Below are positions 1 to 11,032 of a DNA stretch of 64,000 nt, one piece after another. The position numbers were made by a program, and so were the translations under genes. The notes under the pieces are model-generated. The model ran no database searches. It worked only from the letters and a program-made list of their open reading frames with translations, and was not told the DNA's origin. Location: assembly GCF_024169515.1 (NCBI RefSeq), contig NZ_JAMKCQ010000001.1, positions 4,673,077 to 4,737,076 on the forward strand. Reading direction: 5' to 3'. The stretch's first letter is position 1. Each line of letters opens with the position of its first letter. This stretch comes from Erwinia aphidicola. Lineage in GTDB: Bacteria > Pseudomonadota > Gammaproteobacteria > Enterobacterales > Enterobacteriaceae.

Positions 1-21
1 CATCAAAAACAGGAGTGACCT

Positions 22-1032
22 ATGAAACCCCGTTCCGTGACGCTGGAAGATGTCGCCCGTGCCGCTGGCGTCTCGTATCAAACCGTCTCCAGAGTGCTGA
101 ACCATTCGCAGCAGGTCTCCGGAAAGACCCGCCAGCGGGTTGAGGCAGCGATGCAGGCGCTTAACTATGTGCCAAACCGGGTGGCACAGCAGCTGGCGGG
201 CAAGAATACGCGCACGCTCGGCCTCGCCACCAGCGACCTCGCGCTGCTGGCTCCGGCGCAGATTGCCTCCGCCATTCAGCAGCGCGCCAGCCAGCTGGAC
301 TACCACCTGGTGATAGCGATGGCGGGCAGCGGCGGCGCACGCCAGGCGGTCAGCGACCTGCTGGCACAGCGCGTCGACGCGCTGATAATCAATATTCCGC
401 TTGATGCCTCTGCCGCCAGCCAGATTGAGCAGATGGCGGGATCCCTGCCCTGCATCTTTCTGGATGTGGCGGAGGATGCCGCGGTGGCGATATGCAGCTT
501 CAGCGCACAGACTGGCGCACGCCAGGGGGCCGAGCATCTTTTGCAGCTGGGGCATCGGCGAATCGCGTTATTGAACGGGCCGGCGGACTCGGTGGCGGCG
601 CAGGCGCGCAGCAAGGCGTGGCTGGCGGTGCTGAGGGAACGGGATCTGGCGCCCACACAGCAGCTAAGCGGCGACTGGAGCGCAGAGTCCGGCTACCGGG
701 CGGTGATGCAGCTGGAGGGTCAGGCACGCCCTACGGCGCTGTTAGTGGCTAACGATCAGATGGCACTCGGTGCGATGCAGGCGCTGCACCAGCTTGGCGT
801 GGCGGTACCTGCGCAGATGTCGGTGGTGGGCTATGATGATACCGCCGACAGCGCCTGGTATCAGCCGCCGCTGACCACGGTGCGCCAGGATATGCGCCAG
901 CTAGGTGAATGCAGCGTGAACTCGCTGGTGGCTAAGCTGGAAAACCCCGCTGCCGGTGAGGCGCTGACGCCTTTTGCCACCACGCTGGTGGTGCGCGCCA
1001 GCACCCGTCAGGCTCCGGAACAGCAGGCATAA
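22..1032 (+). CDS. lacI: LacI-family transcriptional repressor, close to LacI
   Basis: A 336-residue sugar-responsive DNA-binding repressor. Residues about 6-27 form the LacI helix-turn-helix (VTLEDVARAAG, VSYQTVSRVLN) and residues about 51-61 the hinge helix NRVAQQLAGK, nearly identical to E. coli LacI. The periplasmic-binding-protein-like core also keeps LacI stretches such as LLAQRVDALIINIPLD, LLVANDQMALGAMQ and SVVGYDDTADS. The ATG at 22 has AGGAG about 7 bases upstream. E. coli LacI is 360 residues; here the C-terminus stops shortly after the core, so the leucine-heptad tetramerisation helix is missing and the protein is probably dimeric. The regulated genes are not in this window; they may lie upstream of position 1. 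It converges on tmaR with a terminator between them. Identity as a galactoside repressor is inferred from similarity; another sugar is possible. Confidence 0.85.
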   Translation: MKPRSVTLEDVARAAGVSYQTVSRVLNHSQQVSGKTRQRVEAAMQALNYVPNRVAQQLAGKNTRTLGLATSDLALLAPAQIASAIQQRASQLDYHLVIAMAGSGGARQAVSDLLAQRVDALIINIPLDASAASQIEQMAGSLPCIFLDVAEDAAVAICSFSAQTGARQGAEHLLQLGHRRIALLNGPADSVAAQARSKAWLAVLRERDLAPTQQLSGDWSAESGYRAVMQLEGQARPTALLVANDQMALGAMQALHQLGVAVPAQMSVVGYDDTADSAWYQPPLTTVRQDMRQLGECSVNSLVAKLENPAAGEALTPFATTLVVRASTRQAPEQQA

Positions 1033-1060
1033 AAAAGCCGGACAGATTGCCCGGCCTTTA
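1031..1060. terminator. Bidirectional intrinsic terminator between lacI-like gene and tmaR
   Basis: GCCGG and CCGGC arms around a short loop, preceded by a run of A and followed by CTTTAT. It lies between the converging 3' ends and can serve both strands. Confidence 0.6.
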
Positions 1061-1078
1061 TCATGCTGGCGTTCGCCG

Positions 1079-1396
1079 TTACGCTTTCGGCTCGCCCATC
1101 GCTTTCAGCTTCTTCGACAGATCGCGACGCTCTTTAGAGAGGTCGGCATTTTTGATGATGTAATCATCCACGCGATCTTCGTAATCGCTGCGCATGCTGG
1201 AGATAATCTCCTGGATAGCTTCCACGCTCATGCCGGGTTTAATGTACTCACCCAGGTTGTCGAGCAGCAGAACACGCTTCTGGTTATCACGGATTTTCTT
1301 TTCGTTGTCGTGAATTTCACGTTGCAGCTTGTTCTTACGACGAAACATACGCACGAACTCCAGTACGTCCTGAAATGATTGCTTTGCATTTTCCAT
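1079..1396 (-). CDS. tmaR: TmaR/YeeX family protein (DUF496), PTS polar-localisation factor
   Basis: A 105-residue charged protein almost collinear with E. coli YeeX/Tma[20 protein letters not shown] at the N-terminus, then [20 protein letters not shown] and [20 protein letters not shown]. The many heptad-like charged and leucine positions predict coiled coil. TmaR in E. coli gathers at the cell pole and controls the localisation and activity of PTS Enzyme I. The ATG at 1396 was preferred over one five codons upstream because it matches the family start (MEN/MET) and has AAAGGTG about 7 bases before it. It is the first gene of the yeeX-yeeA-dacD order shared with E. coli. Confidence 0.9.
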
Positions 1397-1557
1397 GAAG
1401 ACACCTTTCATTTGGGCCTGCTTACACAGGCATCATTGTCGTAGCCATCAGATTAGCGGCGCGCCGCTGGCGATGGCAATTTTAAACTTGCAGAATCGGA
1501 TTGGGCCTATCTTACCCTGAAGCGACCCGCCTCGCAGTAAGTTGTTGCTGGATCATT

Positions 1558-2652
1558 CTATTTTCGCAGCGCCAGGCGAATAAGTTCCGATAACCGCTCC
1601 AGCTGCCGGACCATCTCCAGACTGAGCCAGACGTAGCCGTGAATGGGGGTTTCCACCAGTTCGTCACTGTCAGACTCGGCGATCAGCTGGCGCAGTTCCC
1701 GCGTAATCTCCACCAGTTCTTCACTGTTGGCTCCAATCTTGTCGGTATTCCCCTCCACGATAGCCTGCGACAGCGCCCGCAGCGTATTTTCGGTCATCTG
1801 CTGGGTGCGGCGCAGCGCCGGGGCGTTCAGCATAATCAGGTGGCTCTGGCGCGACGCCCACCAGGCATTGAGCTGCAGCTCCAGCGTGCAGACCAGATTG
1901 CGGTTCAGCGTCTGTATCCCTTCAAATACCGAGCGCGGCGTGCGCGTCTCTTTACTGGAAGGCTCGATCAGCGCGCGCATCTTAATCACATTACTGAGCA
2001 GGCGCTGTAACGGGCGCGTCAGGCGCGGTTTTTCAACCAGGTTGGGAGAGAAACCGGCGTGATAAACCCGCGCGGTTTCCAGCAGCAGATCGGACAGCTG
2101 AATGCGCCAGTGGGTGTAGGCTTTTTGCGGCCAGATGCTGGTGAACAGCAGCGCCAGCAGCGAGCCGAGGATCACATCACCGCCGCGCCACAGGGCGGTG
2201 GTCATATCCCCCGGGATCCCGCCGCAGATCACCGCCAGGGTGATGCCAATCAGCAGCGCCATATAGGGCTGTTTGCCCAGCGTCAGAAAGCCGCTGATAA
2301 ACATGATCGCCGCGCACCACAGCAGCATGCCCGGCAGCGAGATCAGCTCCAGCCTGAGCGCGATCAGCCCGGAGATAGAGCCATACAGGGTGCCGCCAAT
2401 GCGCTGCAGCGCGCGCGGGAAGACATTGCCCCAGAAGGATATCGGCCCCATCACCACCACCAGCGTGATCAGCGGCCAGCTGCCCTCGGGGATCTCCATC
2501 AGCCTGACCAGCAGGAAGGTAAGCACGAAAGCCAGCGCGATACGCACGCCGTGCACTGTGCGGTAATTACGATATACGTTGAACTGCAGGGCCGAAATCG
2601 GCTTGTCCGGTCGCAAAACAGGCTCCGAAAGATGGGGGTCTCTGCGCGCCAT
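1558..2652 (-). CDS. yeeA: FUSC-family inner membrane protein YeeA
   Basis: A membrane protein with about six hydrophobic segments in its N-terminal half (for example VRIALAFVLTFLLVRLM and LITLVVVMGPISFWGN), followed by a cytoplasmic helical half ending in SLEMVRQLERLSELIRLALRK. It matches E. coli YeeA along its length (RIGGTLYGSISGLIALRLEL, GDVILGSLLALLFTSIWPQ). FUSC proteins resemble aromatic-acid efflux components (AaeB) but YeeA has no firmly assigned substrate. The start is uncertain: ATG at 2652 has AGG six bases upstream and gives 364 residues; a GTG at 2712 would add 20 residues with a poor ribosome site. It lies between tmaR and dacD as in E. coli. Confidence 0.85.
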   Translation of the reverse strand: MARRDPHLSEPVLRPDKPISALQFNVYRNYRTVHGVRIALAFVLTFLLVRLMEIPEGSWPLITLVVVMGPISFWGNVFPRALQRIGGTLYGSISGLIALRLELISLPGMLLWCAAIMFISGFLTLGKQPYMALLIGITLAVICGGIPGDMTTALWRGGDVILGSLLALLFTSIWPQKAYTHWRIQLSDLLLETARVYHAGFSPNLVEKPRLTRPLQRLLSNVIKMRALIEPSSKETRTPRSVFEGIQTLNRNLVCTLELQLNAWWASRQSHLIMLNAPALRRTQQMTENTLRALSQAIVEGNTDKIGANSEELVEITRELRQLIAESDSDELVETPIHGYVWLSLEMVRQLERLSELIRLALRK

Positions 2653-2851
2653 GATACCTGAAGTCGGGGTCGGGAAAAGGCGTAGAGCGACGCTTTTCAG
2701 ATGTTTTTTCACTCATTTATGGCGAGTTAACGGCAGAAAACATTGAATTTACCGGGGAGATACAGCCCGTTAATAATCCATTACCTTGCCGATGAATTTA
2801 TTAACTTTTAAATAACATGGCCGCAGGAAGGCGGCCATGGAAAAATCAGCC

Positions 2852-4036
2852 TTACAGCTTGCGCTTGATATAGTCTGAAATGCGCGTGATAACGCCTGCC
2901 TCTTCTATCGGCTGCAGCGCCACCAGCGGGTAGCTGGCCAGCTGCTTATCGCCCTCAACCAGTTGAATAGTGCCGACCTGCTCGTGCAGCTTAATCGGTG
3001 CTTCCAGATCCTTGCGGTCGATGACGTACTTGGCTTTGACCTTCTGCACTGCATCGCGTGGCAGGGTAAGATAGACGTCATTTTCACTGCCCAGAGAAAT
3101 GCGGTGCGGGTTGCCGTACCAGACATTTTCATGGCCAATCTCTTTGCCCGCGTGGAACAGCTGGACGGTATCGAAATTGCTCTGGCCCCAGATCAGCAGT
3201 TTGCGCGCCTGCTCTTCACGCCCTTTCGGGCTTTTACCCCCCATCACCACGGCAATAAGGCGGCGCTGACCGTCCACGCTGGAGGCAATGATATTAAAGC
3301 CGGCGCTTTCGGTGTGGCCGGTCTTCAGCCCGTCGACGTGCAGGGTTTTGTCCCACAGCAGGCCGTTGCGGTTCTGCTGGGTAATGCCGTTCCAGGTGAG
3401 CGACTTCTCGCTGTACATTTGGTAGAAGTCCGGCTCGCCGCTGATGATCGCCCGTGACAGCTTCGCCAGGTCGCGCGCGGTGGTGAACTGGCCCGGTGCA
3501 TCAAGCCCGTGAACGGTTTCAAAGTGGGTATTAGCCAGGCCAAGCTTTTCAACATACTGATTCATCATGGTGACAAAGTTTGCCTCGCTGCCCGCCACAT
3601 AATCGGCGAGCGCCACGCAGGCATCATTACCTGAATCGATAATCACACCGCGGCTTAAATCGCGCACCGAGACCTTCTCCCCCGGCTTAAGGAACATCAG
3701 CGAAGAACCTTTAAATACCGGGTTGCCTGCTCCCCAGGCATCCTGCCCGACGGTGACCATGTCATCACGGCTAATCCGCTTTTTATCAATAGCGCGGTCA
3801 ACCACATAGCCGGTCATCAGCTTGGTCAGGCTGGCCGGATTGCGGCGCTCATCCGGGTTGCCGGAGGTGAGGATCTGCCCGGTAGTGGCATCCATCAGTA
3901 CCCAGGAAGCGGCATCAATCGCCGGGGCAGTCATTGGGAACGCCAGTGCGTCAACGCCCGGGTTGTTTTCGGCATGGGCTACGGTACTCAGGGCCATAAC
4001 CACGGTTAAACTTGCAAGCTGACGCTTTTTCAACAC
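2852..4036 (-). CDS. dacD: D-alanyl-D-alanine carboxypeptidase (PBP6b)
   Basis: A 394-residue low-molecular-weight penicillin-binding protein that trims the terminal D-Ala from peptidoglycan pentapeptides in the periplasm. It has a Sec signal peptide (about residues 1-22, cut after VAHA), the serine-enzyme motifs SLTK, SGN and KTG (within ASLTKLMTGYVVDRA, IIDSGNDACVALADY and VDGLKTGHTESAGFN), and the C-terminal PBP5_C beta domain with a final amphipathic helix (ISDYIKRKL) for membrane attachment. Similarity is strongest to E. coli DacD rather than DacA or DacC, and its place upstream of sbcB agrees. The start is GTG at 4036 (or TTG at 4033), with AGGA a few bases upstream. Confidence 0.9.
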   Translation of the reverse strand: MLKKRQLASLTVVMALSTVAHAENNPGVDALAFPMTAPAIDAASWVLMDATTGQILTSGNPDERRNPASLTKLMTGYVVDRAIDKKRISRDDMVTVGQDAWGAGNPVFKGSSLMFLKPGEKVSVRDLSRGVIIDSGNDACVALADYVAGSEANFVTMMNQYVEKLGLANTHFETVHGLDAPGQFTTARDLAKLSRAIISGEPDFYQMYSEKSLTWNGITQQNRNGLLWDKTLHVDGLKTGHTESAGFNIIASSVDGQRRLIAVVMGGKSPKGREEQARKLLIWGQSNFDTVQLFHAGKEIGHENVWYGNPHRISLGSENDVYLTLPRDAVQKVKAKYVIDRKDLEAPIKLHEQVGTIQLVEGDKQLASYPLVALQPIEEAGVITRISDYIKRKL

Positions 4037-4271
4037 TCAATCCTCAATACGGTAACAGATAAAAAATTGCGCATGTTGTACGGGATCCTTTGGCATTTTG
4101 TGCGAATAAATTGCAAGAAAATATGAATAAATCAGCCGATTAGCTGATGGAGCTGCACCTGGTGTGGCGCTGAAATTTTTCCACAGGGAAATGCCCTCTT
4201 CTGGATATCGCCACTGCCGCGGCCTGATGTAGTTTTACGTCGACACTTTAATGACAGGAGCGTGATTAAAA

Positions 4272-4520
4272 ATGAAGTTAATACCCTTTGCCTTACTTGC
4301 ACTTTGCCTGAACGGCTGTGCCGATAGCGCAGACCCCCTTGATAGCCGCCAGGGCGCGGTCATTTGTCAGGGTTTCGGCTGTAACACCCCGCCCGGTAAA
4401 CACTCATCCTCATCAGCTACCCACAAGCCAACCCGGGATGAAAAAATTCGCGCGCGCCAGGGGCTGCCGCCGGACTTTGGCAGCGATGAAAGTCGGGTCT
4501 CATTTCCGATAAAATTTTAA
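4272..4520 (+). CDS. Small predicted lipoprotein, unknown function
   Basis: An 82-residue protein that I do not recognise. The N-terminus is a lipoprotein signal: hydrophobic stretch LIPFALLALCLNGC, with lipobox L-N-G-C and the lipidated cysteine at residue 16. The mature part is hydrophilic, with a short CQGFGC pair of cysteines, a Ser/Thr/His/Lys-rich stretch and a tail containing GLPPDFGSDES. Residue 17 is alanine and residue 18 aspartate, so sorting to the outer membrane is likely but not certain. The ATG at 4272 follows AGGAG about 12 bases upstream. It stands alone between divergent dacD and kbp on the same strand, 84 bases before kbp. Confidence 0.65.
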   Translation: MKLIPFALLALCLNGCADSADPLDSRQGAVICQGFGCNTPPGKHSSSSATHKPTRDEKIRARQGLPPDFGSDESRVSFPIKF

Positions 4521-4604
4521 CCGGGTCGGGCATCTGCTGCGCAAAAAGTGCCGGGGCGTCTAAACTTAAGCTGCTCTACTCACCTACTAACAGGAGTTAT
4601 AGAC

Positions 4605-5045
4605 ATGGGACTGCTTGATTTCGTTAAAGAGGCCGGGAGCAAAGTTATTGAGGCCTTCTCCGGCAATGCACACGCGCAGGCGACTGCAATTGAAGATGAC
4701 CTGAAAAAATCGGGGATCCCCGGTGCTGATAAGGTCAAGGTTGAGGTCAATGGTGACAAGGTCGTGGTTACCGGTGATGGCCTGACGCAGGAGGAGAAAG
4801 AGAAGATCATTGTCGCCGCCGGCAACGTGAAGGGTATCGGCAGCGTAGATGACAAGATTACCGTCACCTCGGTAGCCGTTGAGGCCAGATTCTATACCGT
4901 TGTTTCCGGTGATACCCTGAGTGCCATCGCTAAAAAAGAGTATGGCAACGCCAACGACTACAACAAAATTTTCGAAGCCAACAAGCCGATGCTGAGCCAT
5001 CCGGACAAGATCTACCCGGGCCAGAAACTGCGCATACCGCAGTAA
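4605..5045 (+). CDS. kbp: Potassium-binding protein Kbp (YgaU), BON plus LysM
   Basis: A 146-residue protein matching E. coli Kbp (149 residues): N-terminal [14 protein letters not shown], a BON domain (about residues 25-90) with [19 protein letters not shown] and [14 protein letters not shown], and a C-terminal LysM domain (about residues 95-145) with [20 protein letters not shown] and [11 protein letters not shown]. Kbp is a cytoplasmic K+-binding protein. The ATG at 4605 was chosen because CAGGAG lies 9 bases upstream and it equals the family start. A 600-base stretch around this gene has a decayed second copy at 6885-7500. Confidence 0.92.
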
Positions 5046-5066
5046 TCCTGCGCCTGACCTTACCTG

Positions 5067-5090
5067 ACCGGCGAAATGCCGGTTTTTTTT
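5067..5090 (+). terminator. Intrinsic terminator of kbp
   Basis: Perfect ACCGGC / GCCGGT stem with a five-base loop followed by eight T. A worn version of the same hairpin follows the second kbp copy near 7389-7410. Confidence 0.8.
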
Positions 5091-5265
5091 CGTCTGACAC
5101 CGCTGCTGCGACGCTTCAGCCTGTAGGGGATATGGTTTACCATAAGGCATATCACTAAAACGCATCGCTCAGGAGAGAGCTCAGGATGAAGGTAGAGGGA
5201 TTTTCCCGCCCGACTCAATGCTGCGTTTTCAGGAAGTTAATTATTAAGTGGACCGCCATAACATC

Positions 5266-5403
5266 ATGAAAAACGCCACCAGCCAGCCCACCTTCCTTTT
5301 TCACGATTACGAAACCTTTGGTAAAAGTCCGTCGCTGGACCGCCACTTAAAATCCCTAACATGGAGTAAATCACCCCCCCTAAAATTACAAAATATTTTT
5401 TAG
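5266..5403 (+). pseudogene. sbcB: Severed 5' end of a second sbcB copy
   Basis: From the ATG at 5266 the frame reads MKNATSQPTFLFHDYETFGK then SPSLDR, which is the start of exonuclease I (compare QPTFLFHDYETFGKSPSLDR in the intact gene at 9490). Homology stops at about 5342; the frame then runs into AT-rich DNA and ends at 5403. The 55 bases shared with the intact gene differ only at a few third-codon positions, so this is a related but diverged allele. The ten bases TGGACCGCCA occur at both edges (5249-5258 and 5336-5345), and TTAAGTGG (5244-5251) is mirrored by CCACTTAA (5343-5350). The fragment holds the first catalytic acidic residues but cannot encode an enzyme. Confidence 0.85.
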
Positions 5404-5686
5404 TCATCACCAACACTTATCAACCAGAGGATAATAAAATAACAACTACAGCCCTCTATCAATAATATAAAAGAAAAAATAAGTAGATATTTAAAACCAG
5501 TATAGAACAAAAGAAATTTATTAATTAAATGAATGGTATTGAGTAATGAAATTCAAACCATTCAGTCACAACGGATAACATCTTATTTCCAAAACCATTT
5601 TTTTGTGGGAAAGGTATGGTAAAACAGTTATAATAGGATATCTCCGAAAACACAATAAGTCAGATAAAACCACCTGGATTTAAGTA
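5404..5686. other. AT-rich gap without a gene
   Basis: Strongly AT-rich, with no reading frame I would support. It marks the left edge of the acquired acyltransferase block and presumably holds the promoter of the gene at 5687. Confidence 0.5.
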
Positions 5687-6787
5687 ATGAATATAGATAA
5701 AAATAAAATAAATTACCTTGAAGGATTACGTGGACTCAGTTGCATGGTGGTTTTATTTGACCACTGTGTAAATCAGTTTTATCCTTCACTTAGACTTACA
5801 AACCAAAGTGGATTTACCGGAACTGTAAAAGACATTATTGCATGGTCCCCTCTTAACATAATTTACAGTGGCCTTATTTCCGTATTTATTTTCTTTATAC
5901 TAAGCGGATTCGTTCTGTCCCACAAATATCATCTTACCAGAAACTTCAAAGACATAATAAATGCATCTAGGAAAAGATACTTCCGTTTACTAATACCAGT
6001 TTTTTTCTCACTTATATTTTTTTGGATTTGCAAGGAAATAATTGAAATTCTTTTCAAAAAGGAAAACAACATTTCTTTCTTTCAAATAATAAAATCCTCA
6101 TTTTTCGATATATTCTTTACTGGCGAAAATATCATAAACGGTCCATTATGGACTATGCATGCAGAACTAGTAGGTTCCTTCATCGTATTTGGAATATTAG
6201 CCGTAAGCCATGAGATGAGATTTAGATGGTTAGTATACCTCACTGCATTGATTTACACATTCAATACTTTTTACTTTCTCTTTATATTAGGTGCTTTACT
6301 ATCTGATCTTTATACATCTCAATATCACTCATGGATAAAATTTTTAAATAAAAAAACAATAAACACCCCCCTACTAATACTCTCACTTTTATTTGTCTCC
6401 TACCCAACAATAAGACCAGGCGTAGAGATAGGTGGTATCTACACCTACTTAACATTCCCAGCAGACTTTAGCATTCATACCTTCTGGCATATTATCGGCG
6501 TAAGCATTATTTTTTTAGTTATTTTAAACACTCCTTCACTGCAAAAAATATTCAATCATAATCTGTCACTTTTTTTAGGTAAATTATCCTTTTCTGCTTA
6601 TGTCTTACACTTCCCGATTTTATTAGTAGTGAGAGAGTTCAATATAAAATTCAATTCTGCATCATTAACTCTACTTGTTAACTCAATAATTGTATTTTCG
6701 TTGACACTGATAATTTCAATTGCATTTGAAAAATACATTGACAAGAATGCCGTGATAATATCAAACAAAATAGCCAAGAATGCATAA
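5687..6787 (+). CDS. Acyltransferase-3 family membrane O-acyltransferase (OafA/NolL type)
   Basis: A 366-residue integral membrane protein with about ten hydrophobic segments. The N-terminus NYLEGLRGLSCMVVLFDHCV is the acyltransferase-3 signature with the conserved His at residue 26; RKRYFRLLIPVFF and GPLWTMHAELVGSF are two further family motifs. Proteins of this type usually move acetyl or other acyl groups onto sugars of O-antigen, exopolysaccharide or lipid-linked intermediates at the inner membrane. The exact substrate cannot be read from sequence. The gene is far more AT-rich than kbp or sbcB and uses A/T-ending codons, a sign of transfer. It lies between an sbcB fragment and a broken kbp copy. 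The start ATG at 5687 is supported by the motif position; upstream TAAG gives only a weak ribosome site. Confidence 0.8.
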   Translation: MNIDKNKINYLEGLRGLSCMVVLFDHCVNQFYPSLRLTNQSGFTGTVKDIIAWSPLNIIYSGLISVFIFFILSGFVLSHKYHLTRNFKDIINASRKRYFRLLIPVFFSLIFFWICKEIIEILFKKENNISFFQIIKSSFFDIFFTGENIINGPLWTMHAELVGSFIVFGILAVSHEMRFRWLVYLTALIYTFNTFYFLFILGALLSDLYTSQYHSWIKFLNKKTINTPLLILSLLFVSYPTIRPGVEIGGIYTYLTFPADFSIHTFWHIIGVSIIFLVILNTPSLQKIFNHNLSLFLGKLSFSAYVLHFPILLVVREFNIKFNSASLTLLVNSIIVFSLTLIISIAFEKYIDKNAVIISNKIAKNA

Positions 6788-6929
6788 ATATGGTTTAAAG
6801 CAATAATTTTATCTAGGCCAGGGTAATATTACTGTTTAACTCTGGCAATGTTCTCAACCAACCAGACAGAACTTAATTCTCAGTCTAAACTTAAGTTGCT
6901 GTACTCACCTACTAACAGGAGTTTTAGAC

Positions 6930-7366
6930 ATGGGACTGCTTGATTTCGTTAAAGAGGAGAGCAAAATTTTGAGGCCTTCTCCGGCAATGAACACGCGCAG
7001 GCGACTGCGATTAAAGATAACCTGAAAAAATCGGGCATCCCGGGCGCAGACAAAGTTAAAGTCGAGGTCAATGGCGACAAAGTGGTCGTCGCTGGCGACG
7101 GGCTGACGCAGGAGGAGAAAGAGAAGATCATGGTCGCCGCAGGCATTGTGAAGGGTATCAGTAGCGTGGATGACAAGATTATCGTCACCTCGGTAGCCGT
7201 TGAGGCTAAGTTCTTTACCGCTGTCTCCGGTGATACCCCGGGTGCTATCGCGAGGAAAAAGTATGGCAACGCCAACGACTACAACAAAATTTTCGAAGCC
7301 AACAATCCGATGCAGAGCCATCCGGACAAGATCTATCCGGGCCAGAAGTTGCGTATACCTCAGTAA
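6930..7366 (+). pseudogene. kbp: Frameshifted second copy of kbp
   Basis: The copy begins [11 protein letters not shown] and includes the same upstream CTACTAACAGGAGTTxTAGAC block as intact kbp. Between codons 9 and 16 it has lost a net four bases relative to the copy at 4605, so translation from the ATG at 6930 leaves frame and stops after 32 codons. Beyond the shift the kbp frame is open again from about 7082 to 7366 ([39 protein letters not shown]), with substitutions at LysM positions such as SGDTPGAIARKKYG. Similarity to the first copy runs on into the terminator and about 120 bases beyond. A short LysM-only protein from 7082 is conceivable but has no clear ribosome site. Confidence 0.85.
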
Positions 7367-7410
7367 TCCTTGGCCTGAGCGTACCTGATCGGCTAAATGC
7401 CGGATTTTTT

Positions 7411-7836
7411 CGTCTGTAATCATGCCGCGAAGTTTCAGAATCAGAGGGATACGCTTTATCAACAAGGATATGATTACAACGCAATGCTCAAGGTAGTTCA
7501 TCACAGAAACTTTGAATGATTCTTCGCCTTCAGATAGTTAGTCATTCAATAGACCGTAATAACAACACTAAAGTGCCTTAAACAAATCAATCTTCCTCTT
7601 ACTTGATAAATTCACTTCGATCGGACAGGCAATAATAGAGTGAAAAATTATTTTTACGCAGTTTTTTGTACTGTTTAGGTATACAGCCTAACGCATTAGG
7701 TAAGTAGCGTGATAAGCATATTTATCCAGAATAAAGGCTATGAAAGAAACTTTAATGACTTCGCGCAATATAGCACTGTTAAACTATTTATTGTGGTGAT
7801 ATTATATTGAAATAATTTATGAATGGCGTATGACGC
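7411..7836. other. Gap with decayed kbp downstream sequence, then AT-rich DNA
   Basis: The first part, to about 7500, still resembles the region downstream of intact kbp (GCxTTATCAACAAGGATATGATTAC against GGTTTACCATAAGGCATATCAC). The rest is AT-rich with no supportable gene and likely holds the promoter of the next acyltransferase. Confidence 0.5.
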
Positions 7837-8985
7837 ATGATGGCACAATACTTGATAATTCTTTCACTCTCATTTATTTTTCTGAGCACACTATATTTCA
7901 TAGCTGAAAAAAGTGGACTTAAAAACGATTTAAAAAAAACCTCAAAATTTAAAACCATTGACGGATTAAGAGGTCTGGCAGCAATTTTAGTTGTCTTCCA
8001 TCATTCAATCCTGGCAAATATAAATGCAATTAGTGGAAACTGGAATTTTTCTAATGAAAAATTTATAAGCGAAAATGAACACCTCCAAAGTTTTTATCAT
8101 AACGCTGGACCAGTTGGAGTTATTTTATTCTTTATGATAACTGGATTTTTATTCTCTAATAAACTAATCACCAGTAAAGGCAACATTAGTTACACCGACT
8201 TCTACAAAAAGAGAATACTTAGGATTGCTCCTCTTTACTATTTCAGCGTGCTTGTTATATTTATCATATCTATGTCTATGCCCATCAATACACCTTCAGA
8301 TTTTTTGGATGGGGTCAAGAAATTTTTCGGATGGTTAAGTTTTTACTTCATTGGATATGAAGGGTTTACAACTAATTATCCATATAGTAGGTTAAATGCA
8401 GGAGTTTTTTGGACGTTGGCGGTAGAATGGAAATTCTATTTTTTAATCCCTTTTTTAGGTCTCTTTGCAGGCTCACTGAGAAATGTAATAATATTTTCCA
8501 CCTCAGCCGCCTTAACTATTATCACCTTAAACAATGCCGGCTTGATAATAAATACGGATAGCGCAATTATACTATCTTTTTTATTTGGTTCACTTTCCTC
8601 TATAATACAAAACAGCCAACTAAACCTTAAACTTCTAACTCTCAAACCTTTATCTATTTTAACTATAGCTTGTATAACCTACGCTTTATTATCCCCACCG
8701 GAGGTCTATAATAATTTAACCGTAAGCGTTATAGGCGTTGCATTTATTATCATTAGTGGTGGGAACAGCATTTTAGGGTTATTAACATCAAAGCCACTCA
8801 AGGCTGCTGGGGTTATAAGTTATAGCATTTACCTGCTTCACGGAATAACACTTAACGTCTGCAACTTTTTCCTTGCAAAAAACATTAGTTACCTTTCAAT
8901 TACTGCCATTTCATTAATAATCATACCTTTAATATGTACAGCCACCTATTTATACATTGAGAAGCCTTTTATATCAAAAAATTAG
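7837..8985 (+). CDS. Second acyltransferase-3 family membrane O-acyltransferase
   Basis: A 382-residue membrane protein with about ten hydrophobic segments. Family signatures are FKTIDGLRGLAAILVVFHHS (residues about 41-60, conserved His pair), FYKKRILRIAPLYYF and GVFWTLAVEWKFYFLIPFLG. This is closer to the common OafA/YrhL type than the gene at 5687, to which it is not an obvious duplicate. The first segment (YLIILSLSFIFLSTLYFIAE) precedes the signature and may act as an uncleaved signal anchor. It is AT-rich like its neighbour and unlike sbcB, which follows after a 504-base gap. The likely role is O-acylation of surface polysaccharide; the O-antigen at 28-40 kb and the exopolysaccharide at 41-59 kb are both possible targets. 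ATG at 7837 is the first of two adjacent ATG codons. Confidence 0.82.
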   Translation: MMAQYLIILSLSFIFLSTLYFIAEKSGLKNDLKKTSKFKTIDGLRGLAAILVVFHHSILANINAISGNWNFSNEKFISENEHLQSFYHNAGPVGVILFFMITGFLFSNKLITSKGNISYTDFYKKRILRIAPLYYFSVLVIFIISMSMPINTPSDFLDGVKKFFGWLSFYFIGYEGFTTNYPYSRLNAGVFWTLAVEWKFYFLIPFLGLFAGSLRNVIIFSTSAALTIITLNNAGLIINTDSAIILSFLFGSLSSIIQNSQLNLKLLTLKPLSILTIACITYALLSPPEVYNNLTVSVIGVAFIIISGGNSILGLLTSKPLKAAGVISYSIYLLHGITLNVCNFFLAKNISYLSITAISLIIIPLICTATYLYIEKPFISKN

Positions 8986-9489
8986 CCTTTATTAGCCAGT
9001 TCAGAAATAAGTTCTGGCAATTTAAAAATTAAGTCAGCACACATAATAGAAAACAACTTCTCTTTCAATAAAAATTAATTATTCTACTTTTTCGTTAAAA
9101 CTTCGCAATTACCGTTTCACTAATAATTAAATTTTCTATAAAAATTGGTTTTGCAAAGAAGTAAAATTTTAGTCCATACAACGCATGCAACCCCCATGTC
9201 GATTCCTTCGAATCCTCAACTCTAGCTGTCTAACATCGGCCAGTGCTTTCTCCATCCCGAAAATGAAAGATAATTGCGCCCTGAATGATATGTGAATGCC
9301 AAACCCATTGCGATATGCCCCTTCAGGACTTGCCGATTATGGTTTACCATGAGTGGAGATAAGTTTAGCGTAGCTAAGCGTCATGATAATTTTCTGTGCG
9401 CATGGCTATAGAGGTTTTGTATCATTTTGGTAAGAAATGCTCCTCTTACTAAGCAAAACGTACTGATTCAGAAGTGAAAAGAGAAAATA
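8986..9489. other. Gap upstream of sbcB, right edge of the AT-rich block
   Basis: AT-rich to about 9180, then shifting to backbone composition. Around 9330-9355 a GATTATGGTTTACCATGAG stretch resembles the DNA just downstream of intact kbp (GATATGGTTTACCATAAGG near 5130), so this is probably the original kbp-sbcB spacer. I see no gene. Confidence 0.5.
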
Positions 9490-10917
9490 GTGAAAGACAA
9501 AGCTAATCAACCCACCTTCCTCTTCCACGACTACGAGACCTTCGGTAAAAGTCCGTCGCTGGACCGCCCTGCGCAGTTTGCCGGCATCCGTACCGATATG
9601 GACTTCAACATCATCGGCGAGCCGGAGGTGTTTTACTGCCAGCCTGCGGATGACTATCTGCCGCAGCCGGAAGCGGTGATGATCACCGGGATTACCCCGC
9701 AGATTGCCCGTGCCCGCGGGGTGCCGGAAGTGGAGTTCACCCGCCGCATTCATCAGCTGTTCAGCGAGCCGAACACCTGCATAGTGGGCTACAACAACGT
9801 GCGTTTTGACGACGAAGTCAGCCGTAACCTGTTTTATCGCAACTTTTACGACCCCTACGCCTGGAGCTGGCAGCACGGTAACAGCCGCTGGGATCTGCTG
9901 GACGTGATGCGCGCCTGCTATGCCCTGCGCCCGGACGGGATTGCGTGGCCGGAAAATGATGATGGCTTCCCCAGCTTCCGCCTTGAGCACCTGACCAAAG
10001 CCAACGGCGTGGCGCATGAAAACGCTCACGATGCGATGTCGGACGTGTATGCCACCATTGCCATGGCGAAGCTGGTCAAAGAGAAGCAGCCGCGGCTGTA
10101 TGACTTCCTGTTCAGCCATCGCAATAAGCAGAAGATAACCGCGCTGGTCGATATTCCGCAGATGAAACCGCTGGTGCATATCTCCGGCATGTTTGGCGCG
10201 GCGCGCGGCAATACCAGCTGGATCGCCCCGCTCGCCTGGCACCCGGATAACCGTAACGCGCTGATTACCTGCGATCTCGGCGGTGATATGTCGCCGCTGC
10301 TGGAGCTGGACGCCGACGCGCTGCGCGAACGCCTGTATACCCGCCGCGACGAGCTGGGGGATGCCTCCCCGGTACCGCTCAAGCTGGTACATATTAATAA
10401 ATGCCCGGTGGTCGCCCCGGCGAATACCCTGCGCCCTGAAGATGCCGAGCGCATCGGCATTGACCGCCAGCGCTGCCTGGATAATCTCGCCCTGCTGCGT
10501 CAGCATCCGGAGGTGCGCGAAAAAGTGGTGGCGCTGTTTGCGGAAGCCGAACCCTTTACCCCGTCGGAGGATGTCGATGCGCAGATCTATAACGGCTTCT
10601 TCAGCGATGCCGATCGCAACGCGATGAATATACTTCGCCAGACTGCCGCGGAAAATCTGCCGGCGCTGGATCTGAGCTTTAACGATGCGCGTATTGATAA
10701 GCTGCTGTTCCGCTACCGCGCGCGCAACTTCTTCGGCACGCTGGATGACGCCGAGCAGAAGCGCTGGCTGCAGCACCGCCGTGAGATGCTGAACCCTGAG
10801 CGGGTGCAAAGCTATGTGCAGGAGCTGGAGATGCTGTTTAATCAGTACGAAGGGGAGCAGGAGAAGCTGGATCAGCTGAAGGCGTTGTTTGAGTATGCGC
10901 GGGAGTTGGTGTCCTGA
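9490..10917 (+). CDS. sbcB: Exodeoxyribonuclease I
   Basis: A 475-residue single-strand-specific 3'-5' exonuclease of the DEDD family, used in recombination and mismatch repair. The first catalytic pair is D14/E16 in FLFHDYETFG; later conserved blocks are GYNNVRFDDE, WDLLDVMRACYALRPDGIAW, NAHDAMSDVYATIAMAKLVK and YNGFFSDAD. It aligns with E. coli SbcB over the full length. The start is GTG at 9490 with a purine-rich AAGAGA just upstream; the severed copy at 5266 starts with ATG at the equivalent place. The last 26 bases of the gene are repeated 76 bases downstream together with a palindromic element. Confidence 0.95.
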   Translation: MKDKANQPTFLFHDYETFGKSPSLDRPAQFAGIRTDMDFNIIGEPEVFYCQPADDYLPQPEAVMITGITPQIARARGVPEVEFTRRIHQLFSEPNTCIVGYNNVRFDDEVSRNLFYRNFYDPYAWSWQHGNSRWDLLDVMRACYALRPDGIAWPENDDGFPSFRLEHLTKANGVAHENAHDAMSDVYATIAMAKLVKEKQPRLYDFLFSHRNKQKITALVDIPQMKPLVHISGMFGAARGNTSWIAPLAWHPDNRNALITCDLGGDMSPLLELDADALRERLYTRRDELGDASPVPLKLVHINKCPVVAPANTLRPEDAERIGIDRQRCLDNLALLRQHPEVREKVVALFAEAEPFTPSEDVDAQIYNGFFSDADRNAMNILRQTAAENLPALDLSFNDARIDKLLFRYRARNFFGTLDDAEQKRWLQHRREMLNPERVQSYVQELEMLFNQYEGEQEKLDQLKALFEYARELVS

Positions 10918-11032
10918 TATCACAAGGGCTGACCGAAAAAGAGGGTCAGCCCCTACAAAATAGTTCGAGTATGCGCGGGAATTAGCGTTCTGATATCACA
11001 AGGGCTGACCGAAAAGAGGGTCAGCCCCTACA
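10891..11032. repeat. Two tandem palindromic elements, unit 76 bp, carrying the sbcB tail
   Basis: The palindrome GGGCTGACCG-AAAAGAGGG-TCAGCCCC-TACA occurs at 10926-10956 and 11002-11032. The DNA before each copy is also shared: GAGTATGCGCGGGA starts at 10891 (inside sbcB) and again at 10967. So a 76-base unit made of the gene's final codons plus the palindrome has been duplicated. The same element family lies in the puuB-yeeZ and yegH-asmA gaps. Confidence 0.8.

Follow-up and report, generated by a model that had tools for sequence, protein, structure and literature searches.

An acyltransferase island inside sbcB of Erwinia aphidicola, probably the remains of serotype-converting prophages

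How did two acyltransferase genes come to lie among partial copies of the backbone genes kbp and sbcB in Erwinia aphidicola? The locus belongs to a stretch of 64,000 nucleotides (nt), hereafter the window, taken from contig NZ_JAMKCQ010000001.1 (positions 4,673,077 to 4,737,076; assembly GCF_024169515.1). The gene order proposed from the letters alone was borne out by the coordinates: kbp (kbp1), a 5' stub of sbcB (stub1), a first acyltransferase gene (acyl1), a broken kbp (kbp2), a second acyltransferase gene (acyl2) and an intact sbcB (Table 1). The acyltransferase genes are also as AT-rich as first described, with a GC content of 0.30-0.34 in windows inside them versus 0.50-0.62 in the backbone. 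The two kbp copies align over 300 nt at 85% and 75 nt at 96% identity, and the two sbcB starts, those of the stub and of the intact gene, over 85 nt at 80%, both far beyond chance. We conclude that this island most likely consists of the leftovers of one or more serotype-converting prophages that had integrated at the 5' end of sbcB.

The comparison of the locus across genomes, set beforehand, supplied an empty site. In E. aphidicola JCM 21238 (L032, NZ_JACXBP010000003.1, the same as G060:C18), dacD, a gene for a protein of 82 amino acids (aa), kbp and sbcB follow one another uninterrupted, without an island; the layout thus varies even within the species, the island being present in the window genome and absent from this other one. 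Positions 1-5342 of the window are 98.3% identical to JCM 21238 in an alignment running through kbp1 and stub1, which are therefore resident; the only two differences between stub1 and JCM 21238 lie at positions 5328 and 5343. The intact sbcB (9508-10913) is 95.2% identical to JCM 21238, and 95% in the gene body, whereas its start, from -25 to +45, is only 57% identical, as against 100% for stub1. Therefore, 4224 base pairs (bp; 5345-9568) comprising acyl1, kbp2, acyl2 and a replacement sbcB start were inserted inside the resident sbcB, and a 25-bp exact repeat marks both joints. Two traits of prophage integration are present here, namely the resident 5' end left as a stub by an insertion within the gene, and a new 5' end supplied by the element. 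The original prediction had taken both the stub and the broken kbp for alleles from a relative, which is supported for kbp2 and not for the stub.

The 5' end of sbcB is already published as a phage attachment site. The Shigella phage Sf101, which carries the O-antigen acyltransferase gene oacB, is reported to integrate there through a 13-bp attP, CGTAATCGTGAAA, identical to that of Stx phage 2851 (PMC4159516), and a survey of 346 E. coli O157 strains by polymerase chain reaction is reported to have found sbcB occupied in 93 of them (PMC8309913). The reverse complement of CGTAATCGTGAAA falls in the sbcB codons for FHDY. The attP regions of Sf101 and mEp234, read directly, carry the sbcB start up to this core (codons 1-15 in Sf101), and after integration of Sf101 the order becomes stub, small open reading frame (ORF), oacB, rest of the phage, antisense integrase and new sbcB start. 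With the SbcB N-terminus as query, seven phage records were retrieved; those of mEp234 and HK140 match weakly (E 2 to 9), yet the matches lie at the record end or on an annotated attP, so that annotation and position carry the weight.

The island resembles integrated Sf101 in the attachment gene and its end, in the phage-borne replacement of the sbcB 5' end, in an acyl_transf_3 gene on the stub side in sbcB orientation (acyl2 for oacB) and in an integrase antisense on the sbcB side. Unlike Sf101, a complete and active phage, it keeps only acyltransferases, an integrase fragment and the sbcB 5' end; it has in addition a kbp allele and a second acyltransferase, and acyl2 is just 34% identical to OacB over 46% of the acyl2 length (E 2e-18). 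Stx phage 2851 and mEp234 share the site and the 13-bp core, and these phages, HK140 and the Stx2c prophages at E. coli sbcB are intact phages with cargo other than that of the island. Another class of serotype-conversion genes, the gtrABC cassettes, occurs in lambdoid and P22-like phages. Genes resembling gtr lie at the sbcB site in loci L046, L196 and L197 and in the phage contig L207 (one protein Pfam-checked as Glycos_transf_2, the others called by profile or reading), but these cassettes serve glycosyl transfer, whereas the window island has acyl transfer and no gtr genes. Among the literature matches listed, none describes the sbcB site in Erwinia or Pantoea, and a term search of two Erwinia prophage papers (PMC9866893, PMC7317114) returned no mention of sbcB, exodeoxyribonuclease or acyltransferase.

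A third prophage trait, the antisense integrase beside sbcB, is present in the island as an N-terminal relic alone. A tblastn search with the integrase of an insertion in a genome of the genus (G032, see below) matched residues 5-71 at 45% identity on the minus strand at 9459-9259 (E 4e-9); the score is 48.5 bits, whereas none of 200 shuffles exceeded 19.6 (0/200), and the relic has an internal stop. It has the place and orientation of full-length integrase starts, somewhat closer to sbcB, and it was detected by the integrases of the Erwinia-group insertions (L113 and L035), whose Arm-DNA-bind_3 and Phage_integrase domains were confirmed. Integrase relics were seen at the same place in many of 23 hand-chosen loci tested. 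The view that the island lacks any mobile-element gene has to be given up on account of this relic. The integrases of Sf101, mEp234 and PA-1, used as queries, gave nothing below E 0.3 in the island. In the spacer between kbp1 and sbcB (5046-5265), a YGKPY-like stretch was considered as an older integrase relic and discarded, 41 of 200 shuffles scoring as well.

Is the same site used in relatives? We fetched 100 sbcB loci, 80 from titled records and 20 from genomes of the genus, a few of which overlap in origin (L and G numbers denote loci and genomes). Where dacD is in view, its distance to sbcB ranges from less than 200 bp to about 9 kb, and within the stretches fetched kbp occupies this place in a single locus, that of JCM 21238. 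According to our reading of the alignments, the Pantoea loci with gaps of about 200 bp share one type of sbcB start, whereas eight of the ten with larger gaps have another (L054, L063, L065, L066, L068, L071, L073 and L075) and two retain the first (L055 and L069). Identity between L064 and L066 is 95% in the sbcB body and 44% in the start, that between L106 and L111 94% in the start and 73% in the body. One of these intervals between dacD and sbcB, in Candidatus Pantoea gossypiicola (L065, 7153-8411), holds genes for a Tlde1-domain protein and a type VI secretion system Hcp protein beside an integrase relic.

Stubs were searched for with a profile of sbcB starts upstream of sbcB in the window and the 100 loci, and were found in the window and four loci (L106, E 5.6e-9; L040, 9e-7; L054, 0.0033; L111, 0.0043), all remaining rows having E >1; these four stubs stop at the phage core or at most some 5 nt beyond. 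When 37 genomes of the genus were scanned with the motif, second copies collinear with the first turned up in G000, G012 and G032, and another close to the end of a contig in G006, against three matches in two genomes for a reversed control pattern; copies with one mismatch in G031 and G006 look like chance. In G032 a stub lies 50.8 kb upstream of an sbcB with a differing start, beside which stands an antisense gene with Arm-DNA-bind_3 and Phage_integrase domains, and in G345 stub and sbcB are 49.9 kb apart, again with an antisense integrase beside sbcB; both insertions are of prophage size, as judged from this spacing. Stub and sbcB are on separate contigs in G006, G132 and G198. In the locus of G032 (L193), an AT-rich gene for a 366-aa protein, 31% identical to acyl2 over 124 aa, stands between dacD and the stub, outside the 50.8-kb insertion; from this case, older relics may pile up beside newer phages.

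At the level of the family, the sbcB motif was matched in 154 of 295 genomes, and seven genomes (10 stretches) were taken from those listed with two matches, others such as G313, G316 and G341 being left out. All seven have a stub, which ends at the core or a few nt past it in six (L197, L198, L199, L201, L203 and L205) and runs to about nt 68 in L196. In this last locus 139 bp are common to the stub and the intact sbcB start at 97% identity, and the stub reaches beyond the phage core, as in the window. Two arm-type repeats, 12 nt apart and with 0-5 mismatches in 18, follow 61-63 nt on in 11 of 13 attL or attP sequences, all except L205 and L054; the variants used for scoring were derived from these same 13 sequences. 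An attP form is seen in the IMG/VR contig L207, whose integrase is 88% identical to that of G032 and is followed by an attP with the sbcB start and by three genes resembling gtrA, gtrB and gtr, the second matching a three-protein GtrB profile at E 1.5e-166. Among viral contigs, the sbcB motif was present in 8 of 80 integrase loci.

We then asked how often integrases and surface-sugar genes accompany sbcB, using 100 distinct loci (101 minus one duplicate, the window included). An integrase gene or relic lies at most 1.5 kb before sbcB in 20 of them. Where dacD is in view (80 loci), the 45 gaps below 400 bp contain no integrase (0/45), whereas the 35 larger ones contain an integrase in 11 cases and Acyl_transf_3 or GtrB cargo in 15. 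Such cargo is found upstream of sbcB in 21 of the 100 loci and within 9 kb downstream in three, all by the GtrB profile. Integrase and cargo occur together in 10 loci, integrase only in 10, cargo only in 11 and neither in 69; the corresponding p = 0.0011 is a guide only, as the acyltransferase profile (12 Pfam-checked proteins from 10 surveyed loci, the window's two and two phage proteins) comes partly from the surveyed loci, upstream lengths vary and genomes are related. The expectation that surface-sugar genes would be found here is therefore sustained by the cargo upstream of sbcB, and so is that of a strain-variable site, within both species and genus; the kbp-sbcB junction is however not the special place, which is instead the first ~50 nt of sbcB, as described for Sf101. 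Six loci (L038, L041, L103, L120, L123 and L126) have acyltransferase genes of ~380-410 aa directly after dacD with a backbone-like GC of 0.52-0.54 (three Pfam-checked, the others by profile); an integrase relic accompanies the one in L038 and none the other five, and these genes are perhaps older, settled residents.

Both proteins encoded in the island are full-length Acyl_transf_3 enzymes (PF01757, E 1e-29 for acyl1 and 1.9e-29 for acyl2). The first matches phrog_3333, a family of phage O-acetyltransferases (E 2e-24), and shares 27% identity over 99% with the acyltransferase of Pantoea phage PA-1 (E 4e-17); the second matches phrog_3333 (E 6e-49) and the O-antigen acetylase family phrog_6705 (E 9e-21). 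Mutagenesis is reported to have identified seven critical residues in OacB: R47, H58, W71, F98, R116, R119 and S146 (PMC8952252). In alignments read by eye, from which W71 and S146 were left out as lying in poorly aligned loops, acyl2 keeps R47, H58, F98 and the R116/R119 pair, and acyl1 the same residues except F98. Both enzymes would transfer acetyl, or an acyl group like it, to a surface glycan, for instance the O-antigen. No close relative of acyl1 was found among the viral contigs, where acyl2 has relatives in two loci (59% and 27%), the closer one adjoining genes that read like tail-spike and lysis genes. The closest proteins, 83% identical to acyl1 and 98% to acyl2, are both on short contigs, and no donor is assigned. 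At an E threshold of 0.01, blastn matched the acyl1 leader (5345-5686) to none of the fetched loci except the window itself.

The DNA between the two acyltransferase genes begins with kbp2, which differs from kbp1 at 8, 10 and 35 first, second and third codon positions (29 synonymous and 19 nonsynonymous codons) and, relative to it, is broken by deletions of 3 nt and 1 nt near its start. It looks like an allele from a relative that diverged mostly under constraint and was then broken. The kbp2 stretch has matches in 17 of the 37 genus genomes; the best long one beyond the two same-species copies reaches 74%, and a 106-bp match in G027 reaches 85%. Taken together, the kbp2 spacer and the sbcB start following it align with a score of 49 that none of 500 shuffles attains. 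The putative second stub (stub2) ends near the phage core, a weak match equalled by 10 of 300 shuffles against all sbcB starts. A candidate pair of arm-type repeats follows, with 4 mismatches in 18 (equalled by 25 of 1000 shuffles), about 46 nt past the core position and with a spacing of 14, the references having 61-63 and 12.

Several observations suggest how such an island could arise. A phage would carry at its attP a copy of the first sbcB codons; its integration would leave the resident 5' end upstream as a stub, immediately followed by the O-antigen modification gene, and would place the integrase in antisense next to the regenerated sbcB, ahead of it. Later deletion would spare little beyond that modification gene, a piece of the integrase and the replacement 5' end. 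The stretch made up of kbp2, the weak stub2, acyl2, the integrase relic and the new sbcB start has the look of a single collapsed prophage, and acyl2 is most likely left from a serotype-converting phage. This layer would have arisen in a relative in which kbp likewise preceded sbcB, and would then have been added, together with acyl1, to the resident kbp-sbcB. The first acyltransferase gene is probably the cargo of a second such phage, and its left joint may be a recombination scar: either acyl1 arrived on a phage with a different specificity, or the entire block recombined into the resident sbcB, and homologous or illegitimate recombination may account both for this joint and for the arrival of the block.

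A number of results weigh against a prophage origin. No phage structural, repressor or replication gene was seen among the listed ORFs of the island or in a PHROG scan of 10 island frames; besides the two acyltransferases none of the eight other frames matched a PHROG, one reaching E 0.084 with a family of unassigned function. It is for this reason that the island is classed as a relic and not as a prophage. On the acyl1 side, the left joint, at sbcB nt 79, overshoots the phage core by about 30 bp, unlike a standard attL; stub1 is not followed by arm repeats (973 of 1000 shuffles as good), and searches compared with shuffles gave no integrase relic accompanying acyl1. On the acyl2 side, stub2 and the arm repeats are each weakly significant, the arm spacing is off, and the coding part of stub2 compared with stub1 alone is not significant (1253 of 2000 shuffles as good). 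Moreover, the search of the surveyed stretches for acyltransferase or GtrB came up empty in 10 of the 20 integrase loci, and an integrase is missing from 11 of the 21 loci with cargo.

Alternatively, chromosomal recombination from a relative could have brought the whole block, from acyl1 through kbp2 and acyl2 to the sbcB 5' end, in one step, if its left end was joined at sbcB nt 79 illegitimately or through short homology and its right end crossed over homologously, within sbcB or farther on. We give this scenario an even chance; it is compatible with a prophage origin of the acyl2 layer, whose history would then belong to the donor, and competes only on the arrival of the block and on acyl1. 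A left joint without attachment-site features, the 25-bp repeat at both ends and a foreign kbp2 differing mostly at third codon positions all fit it, as does the divergence from JCM 21238, which is higher to the right of the island, like a tract running rightward: substitutions amount to 1.70% on the left side of the island, reach 4.46% within the sbcB body and come to 2.93% further right, where divergence is about 4.2% up to 14051 and 1.9% thereafter. This profile leans to an imported tract extending right, but the step is gradual, with no single sharp recombination edge on that side, and divergence also peaks locally in the left flank (21 substitutions in 401-800). In addition, a single import explains how the integrase relic and the new 5' end arrived and not where they came from, and L196, as a second extended stub, suggests a recurrent process.

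The original prediction, two homologous recombinations at the kbp-sbcB junction that brought one acyltransferase each without a mobile element, draws on the foreign kbp allele and on the variability of the site; we now regard it as very unlikely, given an integrase relic that contradicts it, an insertion that lies inside sbcB and not at the junction, and a site that is variable also without kbp, which stands there in only 1 of the 100 fetched loci, that of JCM 21238. Unlikelier still is a tandem duplication of kbp-sbcB that decayed and later received the acyltransferases, which would account for two kbp and two sbcB starts, but a recent one is contradicted by the divergence (kbp copies 85% identical with differences mostly at third positions, sbcB starts 20% different, against a body with 95% identity to JCM 21238) and an old one predicts two kbp in relatives, where JCM 21238 has one.

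The features of the locus are collected in Table 1. Upstream of it stands dacD, named by an NCBIfam-type curated match; the amino-acid permease downstream is below curated cut-offs, and we take it to be plaP by E. coli gene order. After sbcB (10887-11015), a 53-nt repeat in two copies (91%) carries the palindromes GGGCTGACC...GGTCAGCCC; a similar element is present elsewhere in the JCM 21238 locus, and it is perhaps a REP-like (repetitive extragenic palindromic) element.

Table 1. Features of the kbp-sbcB locus in window coordinates
Feature	Position	Strand	Match
Resident kbp (kbp1, BON and LysM)	4593-5045	+	NCBIfam PRK11198.1 equivalog, E 7e-59
Resident sbcB 5' stub (stub1), 79 nt, holding the 13-bp phage core TTTCACGATTACG	5266-5344	+	
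Left copy of the 25-bp exact direct repeat, marking the left joint	5320-5344	+	
AT-rich non-coding leader of acyl1	5345-5686	+	
acyl1, Acyl_transf_3, 366 aa	5687-6787	+	PF01757
kbp2, broken foreign kbp allele	6930-7366	+	85% to resident kbp
kbp2-sbcB spacer and probable decayed second sbcB 5' stub (stub2, 7580-7607)	7370-7607	+	
Possible decayed pair of integrase arm-type repeats after stub2	7652-7674	+	
acyl2, Acyl_transf_3, 382 aa, OacB-like	7837-8985	+	PF01757
Tyrosine integrase N-terminus relic (part of Arm-DNA-bind_3), internal stop	9259-9459	-	tblastn
Foreign replacement 5' end of sbcB, including the right 25-bp repeat copy (9544-9568)	9490-9568	+	
Intact sbcB (exonuclease I)	9490-10917	+	NCBIfam PRK11779.1, E 1e-241

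A broader proposal is that the first ~50 nt of sbcB serve as a dock for serotype conversion across the Enterobacterales, by way of stacked and pruned phages; to our mind the case for it is evenly balanced. If so, phages would attach through the conserved HDYETFG codons, each replacing the upstream region and the N-terminus of exonuclease I, and would be pruned down to their O-antigen modification genes, so that the resulting stack of acyl and gtr genes would give each strain its own surface chemistry; the stack in the window would be two acyltransferases and a foreign kbp at one address. The reading of the island as a relic, for its part, accounts for an orphan pair of surface-sugar genes without an obvious mobile element as prophage leftovers. 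A practical rule may follow, which is to search just upstream of sbcB for O-antigen modification genes and to take a replaced sbcB start as the scar. On the same reading, a phage site of E. coli and Shigella would be tied to variation in Erwinia, Pantoea and relatives that live in association with plants and insects.

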